Part shown: positions 19,733-36,487 of the stretch, piece by piece
Layout of the letters: every line of letters begins with the position of its first letter
Position numbering within the stretch: position 1 is the stretch's first letter
Virus record (IMG/VR): IMGVR_UViG_3300029448_000148
Coordinates: 1-36,487 of that record
Reading direction: 5' to 3' (one strand)
DNA length: 36,487 bases
DNA from: a virus
The notes under the pieces: model-generated
Databases searched by the model: none
What the model saw: the letters and a program-made list of their open reading frames with translations, nothing else
What the model was told of the DNA's origin: nothing
Made by a program: the position numbers and the translations under genes

Positions 19733-22494
19733 TATCCTATTACATTATAGATTGATTTTACGACCATTAATTCAGTATTTGATGAATCAATTGCAGAAAA
19801 TGCACTTATATTTTTTTGTTGTGCTGCTGATGAACTAGTAGTTTTAGAACCAGACTTTTGTCCTCCTGCTGGTGGAATAAAAATAGTTTTTAAATTGGCA
19901 GACAATGGAGGACTAGGTGCTTGTGAAGTAGATTCTTTTGATTTTGGAAGTACTTGAGCAACAGATTTCATAGCAGGAGCACCTTCATTTGGTAAAGATT
20001 CTATCTCAGATCCAGTTCCAGGTTTAACTGTCCCACCCAAAACTTTAAGAGGATTTATTTTCTTTCCATCTTTATGAGTTTCAAGATGTAAATGTGTTTG
20101 AGCATAATTATCGCTTTTTGAACCTAAAGGAATCAATTTTCCAACTTTTTGACCCTTTCTTACTGGGGAACCCACTTTTAAAGATGGTTTCATATGGAGA
20201 TATGTTGCTATCAATCCGTTACCATGATTGACAGATAAATTTGATGTATAACCAGATGTTAGATATGGATAGTTTGGACTATCTCCTACAACCTTACCAT
20301 CTGCTATAGAAACAACAGGAATTTTAGGATCCTGACCATAAGGTGAATCTTCTGTTATATCAATTCCATTGTGTCCACCATATTTTCTTGAATCACCATA
20401 TTTTTGACCTGATTGTCCTTTATAAGATCCCTGTGGAACTGGTTGAACAACTCCACCACTACTAAATCCAGTAACTTTTCCAGTCTTAGGAATATTTGTT
20501 CCACCCCCCTCTTTATTCATAGAGAGTAAATTATTCTTACCCCAGTAATTAACTGATGATTTACTCATTACAATTTCACCAGGTTGAGCAGCTATTAATT
20601 GAGTATCAGGACCCATTCCTGAAATAGTTTGTCCAGAATTACTAGAAATTGGACCACCACTGTCAAACCTAAAGTTGTTTATATTTTGTGGTTTTGTGGA
20701 TGATTCAGTATTTGATTTGTTGTACAAATTATTAAATACTGGTCCACCATTACTAAAACTTGATATCAAAGAAGATGTATTAGAAGTATTAGAGTTGTTA
20801 GAGTTATTATTAAATACTGGTCCACCATTACTAAAACTTGATATCAAAGAAGATGTATTAGAAGTATTAGAGTTGTTATTGGAAGTATTGGAGTTGTTAG
20901 AGTTATTATTAAATACTGGTCCACCATTACTAAAACTTGATATCAAAGAAGATGTATTAGAAGTATTAGAGTTGTTATTGGAAGTATTGGAGTTATTATT
21001 AAATACTGATCCACCATTACTAAAACTTGATATCAAAGAAGATGTATTAGAGTTGTTATTGAATACTGATCCACCACCACTATATGAATTGACTACTGAG
21101 TCTCCACCATTAACTATTGATCCACCACCACTATATGAATTGACTACTGAGTCTCCACCATTAACTATTGATCCACCACCACTATATGATGTCATAGGAG
21201 TTCCATTCATAACAATTGGACTATAATTATAAATCTCTCCACCTTTATTATAACGTAATAAATTTACTGAAGTGTCTTTCTTAGAAGATTTAACTTCTCC
21301 ACCGTCTTTCATTCCTTTTACAGGAGTATCTTTTTTCTTAAAAGATTTAACTTCTCCACCACCTTTCATTCCCTTTGCAGGAGTATCTTTTTTCTTAGAA
21401 GATTTAACTTCTCCACCACCTTTCATTCCTTTTACAGATGGAACTTCAGGTTTTGAATTTGTTCCTGATTCTTCTTTTGGTGGTTCAATCAATTTAATTT
21501 CAGGTATTTGAGGAATCTCAAAATCTGGTATTGGATCAAATCCCTGAATTGGATCAAAATTAAATAGAGCAAGAGCATCATTTATTCTGTCTATAACAAA
21601 TCCACCTGCAGTATTAAGTCCATCTATCACACCTTGAATGGGATCTGAAAGAAAAGTAAATATATCCGTCAAAACTCCATTTAGTGGTGTGACTAAATTT
21701 TCATTAATTGTTTTTATAACAGGATTAATGAAAAATCCAACAGGATTTTCCAAAATATTCATCAATCCAACTATAGCGCCACCAAGAAGAATATTTTTAA
21801 GAAAATTCATCAACATATCAAAGAATCCACCAACAGGTTTTATCTTTGCAGCAATTTTTTTGAATCCACCACCTTTTTTTGCTTTATCTTCTAATTCTGC
21901 TTCTCTACCTTTTCTTTCTTCTTTTTGTTCACCAATATCAGCATCTCTTGATTCTTCCTTTTTTGCCTCATTTATTTTTTTTGTATTTCCAAGAATATTT
22001 TTAAGATTCTCTTCCATCTTAGCAAAACTTGGCGCTAAAACAGAAGTTAAAATATCATTTGTTTTTTCTTGATCACTTCTTATATCATTTAATAAATCAT
22101 CAAGACCATCAGGTACTTGTTCATCTTTAGGTTCTTGAAGTATTGAAGGTGGTAATAATTTTTGAGGATTTATTTGTGTGGGTTTATTATCTTTTTCTTT
22201 TACTACCTCTGCTTTTCTTTTAAAGGCATCTGCACCTATCTTTTTCTTCTTTGTTTTAAAAGTTCCAGTTTCATTTTTTATTTTTTTAAATTCATCAGTA
22301 AGACTCTCAATGTCCTCAGTGGACATACCAGTGTCTCTTAATCTTGCCTCAGTTATTTTCTCTCTGAGTAGAGTTTTATAATCATCTACAGTTATATCAA
22401 CAGTGTCCTTAATACCTAAAAGCTCAAGATTTTTTGGATCAATTTCTTGACCCATTTGATCATCATTTACTTTTTGTTCAGTCTCAAGAGCCAT
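19732..22494 (-). CDS. Large tail protein (tape-measure-like) with M23 peptidase domain, 920 aa
   Basis: The start chosen is the ATG at 22494 (MALETEQKVNDDQMG), preceded by an AAGG; an ATG at 22524 would add ten residues. The N-terminal third is charged and helical, and then comes NILLGGAIVGLMNIL near residue 240. The middle has three tandem-repeat classes rich in Gly, Ser and Asn. An M23/LytM zinc endopeptidase domain lies at ~690-830, with H708xxxD712 (HNGID) and H801LH803 (THLHLE) as likely zinc ligands. M23 enzymes cut peptide cross-links in peptidoglycan. The stop overlaps the next start as TAATG. The tape-measure role is inferred from size and position. Confidence 0.8.
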   Translation of the reverse strand: MALETEQKVNDDQMGQEIDPKNLELLGIKDTVDITVDDYKTLLREKITEARLRDTGMSTEDIESLTDEFKKIKNETGTFKTKKKKIGADAFKRKAEVVKEKDNKPTQINPQKLLPPSILQEPKDEQVPDGLDDLLNDIRSDQEKTNDILTSVLAPSFAKMEENLKNILGNTKKINEAKKEESRDADIGEQKEERKGREAELEDKAKKGGGFKKIAAKIKPVGGFFDMLMNFLKNILLGGAIVGLMNILENPVGFFINPVIKTINENLVTPLNGVLTDIFTFLSDPIQGVIDGLNTAGGFVIDRINDALALFNFDPIQGFDPIPDFEIPQIPEIKLIEPPKEESGTNSKPEVPSVKGMKGGGEVKSSKKKDTPAKGMKGGGEVKSFKKKDTPVKGMKDGGEVKSSKKDTSVNLLRYNKGGEIYNYSPIVMNGTPMTSYSGGGSIVNGGDSVVNSYSGGGSIVNGGDSVVNSYSGGGSVFNNNSNTSSLISSFSNGGSVFNNNSNTSNNNSNTSNTSSLISSFSNGGPVFNNNSNNSNTSNNNSNTSNTSSLISSFSNGGPVFNNNSNNSNTSNTSSLISSFSNGGPVFNNLYNKSNTESSTKPQNINNFRFDSGGPISSNSGQTISGMGPDTQLIAAQPGEIVMSKSSVNYWGKNNLLSMNKEGGGTNIPKTGKVTGFSSGGVVQPVPQGSYKGQSGQKYGDSRKYGGHNGIDITEDSPYGQDPKIPVVSIADGKVVGDSPNYPYLTSGYTSNLSVNHGNGLIATYLHMKPSLKVGSPVRKGQKVGKLIPLGSKSDNYAQTHLHLETHKDGKKINPLKVLGGTVKPGTGSEIESLPNEGAPAMKSVAQVLPKSKESTSQAPSPPLSANLKTIFIPPAGGQKSGSKTTSSSAAQQKNISAFSAIDSSNTELMVVKSIYNVIG
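20732..21067 (-). repeat. Tandem repeats coding SFSNGGPVFNNNSN units
   Basis: Five near-identical units begin at about 20732, 20810, 20909, 20999 and 21059, so spacings are 78, 99, 90 and 60 bases. All are multiples of three. Differences come from smaller 9-12 base NNSNTSNT sub-repeats. They encode an Asn/Ser-rich linker inside the M23-bearing protein. Confidence 0.9.
21068..21189 (-). repeat. 51-base tandem repeat coding GGGSIVNGGDSVVNSYS
   Basis: Two full 51-base copies (21068-21118 and 21119-21169) and a 20-base partial third copy are nearly identical. Each encodes 17 residues in frame inside the M23-bearing protein. Confidence 0.92.
21268..21438 (-). repeat. 57-base tandem repeat coding KGMKGGGEVKSSKKKDTPV
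   Basis: About three copies of a 57-base unit encode 19-residue blocks that differ by few residues (KGMKGGGEVKS or KGMKDGGEVKS, then Lys-rich KKKDT). The block is strongly basic and precedes the Asn/Gly linkers. Confidence 0.9.
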
Positions 22495-32218: not shown

Positions 32219-32241
32219 AAAAAATGGGAGGTTTCCCCCCC
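32219..32241 (-). terminator. Rho-independent terminator abutting a start codon
   Basis: On the minus strand a six-pair stem (GGGGGG/CCTCCC, one G-T pair) encloses a GAAA loop and is followed by ATTTTTT, then at once by the ATG of the 56-aa gene. It would end the transcript from the promoter at 32640-32668. Confidence 0.85.
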
Positions 32242-32270
32242 ACAATAACACTATTCAATTGATTTGGCAA

Positions 32271-32375
32271 TTACTTGGTGTAAGTGCGTCCACGATAGCA
32301 GAAGGTGCCATGTGACTCCTTGTTCTCTACACAACGGGTATCATACTCAAGTTGGGTGAAAATTAACCTTCTCAT
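32271..32375 (-). CDS. Very short protein, 34 aa, with a YRGRTY motif
   Basis: The ATG at 32375 gives MRRLIFTQLEYDTRCVENKE then SHGTFCYRGRTYTK. The YRGxxY core resembles short cyanobacterial DUF4278-like proteins, but the match is too short to be sure. It ends 30 bases before a strong terminator and follows the 53-aa ORF by 30 bases. The conserved-looking sequence in a region with no longer ORF supports coding. Confidence 0.62.
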   Translation of the reverse strand: MRRLIFTQLEYDTRCVENKESHGTFCYRGRTYTK

Positions 32376-32405
32376 CTTTCGATGGATCCGTTTTTTCCCG
32401 TTCCT

Positions 32406-32567
32406 TCAGTCGTTTGCGTCCCAATAACAATCAGGATTTGACTCCTTCATAACCTCAATTAATTCAACCCTAACATCATTGTTAAGATTTTGATGATTCT
32501 TTATCCTTAGCATAATGCTGTCGGCATCAGAACAACTGATTGATGAATATAAAAGAAATTCTATCAT
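32406..32567 (-). CDS. Small protein, 53 aa, cyanophage-type
   Basis: The translation starts MIEFLLYSSISCSDADSIML, then IKNHQNLNNDVRVELIEVMK and ends CYWDAND. An N-terminal beta strand with a Cys, then helices, is reminiscent of small cyanophage proteins I have seen, function unknown. It is the first ORF after a perfect consensus promoter (32640-32668), with a leader of about 65 bases. There is no strong Shine-Dalgarno; GAACGGAGCGTTC may form a hairpin just before the start. Confidence 0.68.
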   Translation of the reverse strand: MIEFLLYSSISCSDADSIMLRIKNHQNLNNDVRVELIEVMKESNPDCYWDAND

Positions 32568-32639
32568 GGGATGAACGCTCCGTTCCTACGACTTACTTGC
32601 GTCTTACCTTACATAAAAGGTTTGATGAACGATAGAGTA

Positions 32640-32668
32640 ATTATAACTCTACAATATTTAGATGTCAA
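32640..32668 (-). promoter_or_regulatory. Perfect sigma70 consensus promoter
   Basis: On the minus strand TTGACA, exactly 17 bases, then TATAAT. It lies in the 129-base gap between the 49-aa and 53-aa genes and drives the 53-aa and 34-aa genes, probably early in infection by host polymerase. The terminator at 32219-32241 closes the unit. Confidence 0.9.
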
Positions 32669-32696
32669 GACTGCTTAATAATATAATTTGTATCAT

Positions 32697-32846
32697 TTAG
32701 AACTTGTTTCTCTTAGACTTATTATAAATGATCACTTCTTCTCCATCATGTGTGAAGACTAATTCATCATCATGATCCCAACAAAGTTCTTCAAATAATG
32801 CATTTAATTTCTCCATGTCCTCATAGAGAGCATTAGGATTATTCAT
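32697..32846 (-). CDS. Small acidic protein, 49 aa
   Basis: The ATG at 32846 overlaps the stop of the glutaredoxin-like gene as TAATG. The product reads MNNPNALYEDMEKLNALFEE, then LCWDHDDELVFTHDGEEV and a basic end. The helix-then-beta pattern and the coupling support a real gene. No function is known. Confidence 0.75.
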   Translation of the reverse strand: MNNPNALYEDMEKLNALFEELCWDHDDELVFTHDGEEVIIYNKSKRNKF

Positions 32847-35552: not shown

Positions 35553-35577
35553 CAAAAAAAGAGGGGTTACCCCTCTT
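35553..35577 (-). terminator. Rho-independent terminator downstream of the psbD unit
   Basis: On the minus strand AAGAGGGG-TAA-CCCCTCTT is followed by six or more T residues. It lies between the 24-aa Cys-rich peptide gene and glutaredoxin and ends transcription from psbD. Confidence 0.92.
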
Positions 35578-35887: not shown

Positions 35888-36129
35888 GCTTCTTGTAGAG
35901 ATTGAACTGTATTGTGAAGTTCTCCAATATCACGGAGACCTTCAACACTGAACCATGGGGCATTTGCCCAACTGAATCCTTCACCCATGGTGCTATCAGG
36001 TGCTGTGATATACCAATGACATGCTGTGTCTGGTACATCTACTGCACACTTAGACCAATCATCCTGCCACTGTGGGACTTGCACCCACATCAATGCAGCA
36101 AACATAAAAGTGAAGAGTGATTTAATCAC
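35884..36129 (-). CDS. Small exported or membrane-anchored protein downstream of psbD, 81 aa
   Basis: A GTG start overlaps the psbD stop (GTGA), so translation is coupled to D2. The N-terminus looks like a signal peptide or anchor ([20 protein letters not shown]). The rest has two Cys ([20 protein letters not shown]) and several Trp, and may form a disulphide in the lumen or periplasm. A role linked to photosystem II is possible because of the coupling but is not shown. Confidence 0.8.
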
Positions 36130-36487
36130 AGTGCATTACCTCTTGGTAGTACCTCTTCTGGGAAGATGAAGTTCTCATGTGGTTGATCAACAGGTGCCAA
36201 CCATGCACGAAGTCCTTCATTCAGAAGAATGTTTTTTGTATAGAAAGTCTCAAACTCAGGGTCTTCTGCTGCACGAATCTCTTGAGATACAAAGTCATAA
36301 GCACGTAGATTAAGAGCAAGTCCAATAATACCGATAGAACTTGTCCAGAGACCCATGACGGGAACAAAGAGCATGAAGAAATGCAACCAACGCTTATTAC
36401 TAAAAGCAACACCGAAGATCTGTGACCAGAAACGGTTCGCAGTAACCATCGAGTAAGTCTCCTCCTCTTGCGTAGGTTCAAAACCTT
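36126..36487 (-). CDS. psbD: Photosystem II D2 protein PsbD (C-terminal third; start beyond right edge)
   Basis: The visible 119 residues match D2: [28 protein letters not shown] with the non-haem iron ligand His (D2 His268), [35 protein letters not shown] and the end [12 protein letters not shown]. The match is near-complete, with no frameshift. Phage psbD is expressed during infection to replace damaged D2 and keep host electron flow going. It leads a small operon that ends at the terminator at 35553. Confidence 0.98.

Follow-up and report, generated by a model that had tools for sequence, protein, structure and literature searches.

Glutamine riboswitches activate with glutamine; the type 1 riboswitch of Synechocystis controls IF17, whose N-terminal part is DUF4278, and the type 2 form of marine picocyanobacteria is linked to DUF4278 genes (PMC6316151). 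The GS inactivating factor IF17 is defined by DUF4278 together with a C-terminal GS-binding part. Cyanophage glutamine riboswitches are already known as Rfam matches (PMC9964418, PMC9602691), among them the glnA RNA of cyanophage S-CREM1, which is reported as a match of 44.0 bits over 99 nt (PMC9964418).

The window analysed here comprises all 36,487 nt of IMG/VR record IMGVR_UViG_3300029448_000148, an ocean cyanobacterial virus. A sequence-only reading of this DNA had described an apparent gap of about 600 bases holding three short genes. Open reading frames of 53, 34 and 49 codons are indeed present on the minus strand, but the 34-aa frame is no separate gene and a conserved structured RNA had been missed. 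The main feature of the gap is a putative split glutamine-riboswitch aptamer enclosing the 53-aa ORF; it resembles type 1 most closely and lies directly after the promoter. We assign a probability of about 0.78 to the reading of the unit as a glutamine ON-riboswitch that is nearest to type 1 (RF01739) and is interrupted by a protein gene. The parts of the region, in minus-strand order, are as follows.

32697 to 32846, minus strand: 49-aa conserved cyanophage gene (phrog_728, DUF7191)
32640 to 32668, minus strand: sigma-70 type promoter TTGACA-17-TATAAT, from motif scan and locus comparison
32627 to 32631, minus strand: 5' strand of P1, CGUUC ("a")
32602 to 32626, minus strand: P2 arm, a compact hairpin in the window, with a 65-67 aa ORF inside it in other phages
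32594 to 32601, minus strand: first half of the putative ligand core, CGCAAGUA
32589 to 32593, minus strand: 5' strand of P3, AGUCG (partner CGACU at 32412..32408)
32573 to 32585, minus strand: inner hairpin b:c, GAACG-GAG-CGUUC, just 5' of the start codon of the 53-aa ORF
32567 to 32571, minus strand: 5' strand of P2', UCCCA, including the A of the start codon
32406 to 32567, minus strand: ORF1, 53 aa (phrog_504), enclosed in the P3 arm
32419 to 32423, minus strand: 3' strand of P2', UGGGA, in codons 49-50 of ORF1, pairing with the UCCCA before the AUG
32399 to 32418, minus strand: 3' half of the aptamer, with CGCAAA, CGACU (3' strand of P3), GAAG and GAACG ("d", 3' strand of P1)
32271 to 32375, minus strand: 34-aa ORF, a remnant of ORF2 (DUF4278-like, phrog_545), of which only 32351..32271 is homologous
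32350 to 32351, minus strand: junction of a 103-nt deletion relative to contig L001
32224 to 32243, minus strand: intrinsic terminator, a GGGAGG/CCUCCC stem capped by a GAAA loop, with a T-run

The perfect consensus promoter and the GAAA-loop terminator of the earlier description are both present (32668..32640 and 32243..32224, minus strand). No other 12/12 match to the promoter occurs in the 18.5 kb scanned, where weaker matches are at chance level (80 found, 82 expected), and a promoter of the TTGACA/T-17/18-TATAAT type occupies the same place in about 105 of about 135 related loci. Judging from the promoter spacing, transcription probably starts at about 32633, directly at the aptamer. The 49-aa gene lies upstream of the promoter and outside the unit. 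A compact unit with a strong host-type promoter, a terminator and small conserved cyanophage ORFs is thus supported, and its early expression is plausible. Elsewhere in the window, a strong short hairpin with a T-run at 35557..35577 looks like a terminator on the minus strand (being symmetric, it is also listed on the plus strand), a minus-strand frame at 36126..36449 appears to resemble the C-terminal part of photosystem II D2 (psbD), and a repetitive stretch at 20675..21226 carries SSLISSFSNGGPVFNNNSN-like repeats within a 930-aa ORF on the minus strand.

A search of other cyanophages for the short ORFs, as had been proposed, found relatives of the 53-aa ORF in 313 phage records and of the 49-aa ORF in 382. 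Both are under purifying selection (pN/pS 0.39 for the 53-aa ORF and 0.31, from 14 sequences, for the 49-aa ORF), so that the suggested comparison of synonymous and non-synonymous sites was passed by these two and also by the full-length form of the third. The ORF1 product has two invariant cysteines and a predicted helical hairpin (model pLDDT 78.7); a structure search with this model gave no significant match (best E 3.1). Regarding host relatives of ORF1, a search of genome contigs returned only two matches, in MAGs assigned to Euryarchaeota and Saprospiraceae (L089 and L090); these were rejected as hosts, as they carry the cyanophage unit and are probably binning contamination.

The 34-aa frame fares differently. 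Over 750 nt, contig L001 matches the window exactly apart from 103 nt that are absent from the window; in L001 these include the Shine-Dalgarno sequence, the start codon and the 5' half of a 55-aa gene, ORF2. The frame in the window opens at a chance ATG and keeps just the C-terminal 26 residues of ORF2, which makes it a deletion remnant with a fortuitous start codon. The junction was found in no other IMG/VR contig searched, and the deletion may be either a real variant or an assembly error. The parts of the switch are intact in the window; the Shine-Dalgarno sequence and the first half of ORF2 are gone.

The 5' half of the aptamer precedes ORF1 and the 3' half overlaps its last codons and stop, so the entire ORF1 lies inside arm P3, bracketed by helix P2', which joins its start region to its end. 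The signature CGTTCATC occurs twice on the minus strand of the window (three matches on both strands, chance mean 0.11), and GACGCAA..GGAACG also occurs twice (chance mean 0.00). Nearly all of the 80 contigs fetched with the 53-aa protein have CGTTCATC, a hairpin and GACGCAAGTAAGTC, together with [G/C]AACG and CGTT[C/G]A on either side of a short loop, and the start codon. The end of ORF1 and the bases past its stop are nearly invariant (TGG GAC GCA AAC GAC TRA AGGAACGG), and mean synonymous difference falls from a pS of 0.68 in codons 1-48 to 0.09 in codons 49-53. The unconstrained minimum-energy fold of a 240-nt window RNA contains P1, P2, P3 and b:c, with an unexceptional fold energy (z -1.25).

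Class membership was examined against the Rfam cut-offs of 35 bits for type 1 (RF01739) and 33 bits for type 2 (RF01704). The window scores 23.2 bits with RF01739 against the cut-off of 35 (E 2e-4, for this record alone and this family), and ORF-bearing loci stay below both cut-offs; an ORF-long insert in P3 probably hides the RF01739 match. Six relatives without an ORF were scored with the two halves joined through P3. Three of them (L294, L264 and L281) pass RF01739, with 42.3, 40.3 and 35.6 bits, and the remaining three reach 33.7, 33.2 and 30.2 bits, below the cut-off. The joined Rfam alignment forms P1 from the early CGUUC (a) and the late GAACG (d), and P3 from AGUCG and CGACU. The type 1 elements, P1 CGUUC/GAACG, P2, P3 and the AAGUA/GAAG core strands, are all present, with P3 spanning ORF1; the phage core is CGCAAGUA where the type 1 consensus has CGGAAGUA, that is, CGC for CGG. 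The best RF01704 score is 32.1 bits (cut-off 33) and that of the window 4.7 bits, and a search for the pseudoknotted core of type 2 found no hairpin around GGAACGG. Other Rfam matches near the window (snoZ159, U8 and sraL) were discarded as below cut-off and implausible.

The content of the arms differs between phages. A split aptamer with an ORF in P3 is present in 17/17 annotated isolates examined. An early stop ends the ORF in L141 and L211, with the RNA block kept downstream as non-coding sequence; in L169, L191, L204 and many further loci another small ORF fills the P3 arm; and in L264, L281, L294, L324, L332 and others the arm has no ORF, only a short hairpin. Together the early stops, replaced ORFs and ORF-less arms indicate that the RNA, not the protein, is conserved. 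An apparent loss of ORF2 and the 3' half in S-CAM1 was rejected, both being kept beyond an earlier stop. Each of the 251 distinct proteins translated from P3 arms contains exactly two cysteines, spaced by 32-40 and usually by about 35-36 residues. These proteins are otherwise very different; many begin with a hydrophobic stretch, and they often end in DAND, which is dictated by the RNA core.

The P2 arm may also hold a gene. ORF0, of 65-67 aa (phrog_6471; e.g. in L139-L218), has its start codon in one strand of P2 and its stop in the other, and a P2 ORF occurs besides the P3 ORF in S-CAM1, Syn9 (gp196, in L377) and S-TIM5. In a scan aimed at this type, 69 of the 69 distinct loci with enough upstream sequence show CGTTCATC[C/T], a start codon at most a few bases away, ORF0 and a stop inside CATAR|GAC. 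Among 97 loci with an ORF in P2, TCC occurs with GGA in 72, TCT with AGA in 21, TCT with GGA in three and TCC with AGA in one, and the AUG faces CAU in 90. A second scan targeted P3 ORFs with non-standard ends; with both scans directed at chosen types, the counts are not frequencies.

ORF2 is the gene next after ORF1, of about 47-55 aa and DUF4278-like. Against Pfam DUF4278 (PF14105, gathering threshold 25.3) the 55-aa ORF2 scores 22.4 bits (E 1.6e-4) and a 47-aa ORF2 25.5 bits (E 1.7e-5), and the ORF2 of P-TIM40 is annotated as DUF4278. In P-TIM40 a manA RNA (141.7 bits) is also found 3' of ORF2 (L086, 2909-3103). Just 5' of the ORF2 Shine-Dalgarno sequence stands YUUYA, complementary to URAAG at the ORF1 stop. 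Among 298 distinct loci with both cores, in which pairs were counted with purpose-written scripts and fixed patterns, a search for the YUUYA partner of the ORF1 stop identified it in 277 and found none in 21; all 277 can pair. TAAAG pairs only with CTTTA (75 loci) and never occurs with CTTCA, and TGAAG occurs with TTTCA, CTTCA, CTTTA or TTTTA (202 loci).

ORF2 is likely the target of the riboswitch, as deduced from its position. We also infer that glutamine is the ligand, that ORF2 is regulated and that ORF1 translation is an input to the switch. Without glutamine, URAAG at the ORF1 stop would pair with YUUYA by the ORF2 Shine-Dalgarno sequence and keep ORF2 off. In the presence of glutamine the aptamer would form from P1 (a:d), P3 and the RAAG strand, YUUYA would be freed and ORF2 translated. 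A ribosome completing ORF1 would also open the stop/Shine-Dalgarno hairpin, and ORF1 translation would compete with aptamer folding around ORF1, so that the phage would read both glutamine and translation. In its fuller form, which we tend to favour, the proposal is that the aptamer encloses complete, interchangeable genes, that inner translation and glutamine binding compete for one RNA and jointly set expression of the outer gene, and that the inner proteins form a fast-diverging family of two-cysteine hairpins whose C-terminal DAND is dictated by the RNA in many phages.

The same pairing could instead mean that the structured leader no longer binds glutamine and only couples ORF1 and ORF2 translation through the stop/Shine-Dalgarno hairpin. 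The URAAG:YUUYA pairing in every locus with an identified partner fits this explanation, as do a core unlike both Rfam consensus sequences and scores that are mostly below cut-off. We nevertheless consider it improbable, since type 1 scores exceed the cut-off in three natural loci that lack an ORF and since the core, P1 and P3 are almost invariant, more than coupling requires.

Base-pair covariation supports the nested fold of the split aptamer. P2' is paired in 297/298 loci, whichever small protein P3 encodes, and shuffled partners reached at most 220, although shuffles overstate independence because the loci are related. At its most variable position C-G, T-A, G-C and A-T all occur. CACCCC before the start codon pairs with TGGGGC at the end in 13/13 loci; of 156 loci with CATCCC, 155 have TGGGAC and one forms a wobble. 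In P3, a double change from CG to TA (AGUUG/CAACU) is found in L102, L105 and L128, where the protein end changes from DAND to DAKGN. The sequence of the P2 hairpin varies freely among related loci with its pairing kept. Variation is scarce in P1 (a and d) and most of P3, which leaves little covariation to observe there; 9/134 rows have G-G at the outer P1 pair, and we think that these nine have misplaced "a" strands. Since the loci share ancestry and were in part picked by pattern, these numbers show consistency and not independent events.

The inner hairpin bears on a further alternative, that of two ordinary tandem glutamine aptamers (a:b and c:d), each with its own P2, ORF1 being inserted into that of the second. 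Tandem glnA RNAs have been described (PMC2864571), most loci have complementary a:b and c:d strands, and the sub-cut-off Rfam matches land on each unit separately. However, the hairpin b:c has G-C in 283 loci and C-G in 15, and in the swapped loci a stays CGUUC and d stays GAACG; a:d and b:c therefore remain paired there, whereas a:b and c:d would mismatch (C-C and G-G). In addition, the first unit would be without the RAAG strand and the second without AAGUA, and the composite alone has both and alone passes the Rfam cut-off. Tandem aptamers thus seem to us quite unlikely. The a:b pairing may be the unliganded alternative of the split aptamer: averaged over 15 loci lacking an ORF, the combination of a:b with the stop/Shine-Dalgarno hairpin is 0.5 kcal/mol less stable than the minimum-energy fold and the nested state 4.9 kcal/mol less stable, as expected for a ligand-dependent state but also for a wrong one.

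The sequence-only reading itself, of three tiny early genes with a strong promoter and host takeover factors as products, is very improbable; the promoter and terminator are real and the 53- and 49-aa ORFs conserved, but the 34-aa ORF is a truncated remnant (the L001 comparison partly refutes this reading), an RNA element holds the unit together, and its regulation and DUF4278-like target point to nitrogen/glutamine status instead of takeover.

If the split riboswitch is confirmed, a large group of phage switches goes undetected in searches designed for compact aptamers, and there would be genes nested inside a ligand-binding RNA domain. Cyanophage infection would be tied to the glutamine status of the host through the host's own DUF4278 connection, and conserved cyanophage ORFs of unknown function (phrog_504, phrog_6471, phrog_13397 and phrog_545) would be explained. 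Within partial coverage of the literature, we found no description of ORFs inside riboswitch aptamers or their arms, nothing on point for DUF4278 in cyanophages and no transcript measurements for the genes of this unit.

Compared with known systems, the 99-nt glnA RNA of S-CREM1 would, by its length, fit the ORF-less composite (about 98 nt in L294), and the accessible part of that report describes no ORF-bearing form (PMC9964418). With type 2 (Downstream-peptide motif, RF01704) the phage element has in common the CGCA core start and the GGAACGG strand, along with the marine cyanobacterial setting and the DUF4278 target (PMC6316151). In type 2 the closure is a pseudoknot that involves GGAACGG in a hairpin loop, whereas the phage GAACG closes an ordinary P1. 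With type 1 (glnA RNA, RF01739; e.g. the Synechocystis gifB leader) it shares the P1/P2/P3 layout, the AAGUA and RAAGGAACG core strands and a DUF4278-like target. Unlike in type 1, a complete protein gene lies within the phage P3, and sometimes within P2, which is probably why most phage copies fall below the RF01739 cut-off; the phage core also has CGC in place of CGG, and the inner hairpin b:c and helix P2' are additional. Self-splicing introns whose peripheral loop contains an ORF are likewise structured RNAs that carry a protein gene; unlike them, the phage element is a predicted regulatory aptamer and not a ribozyme.
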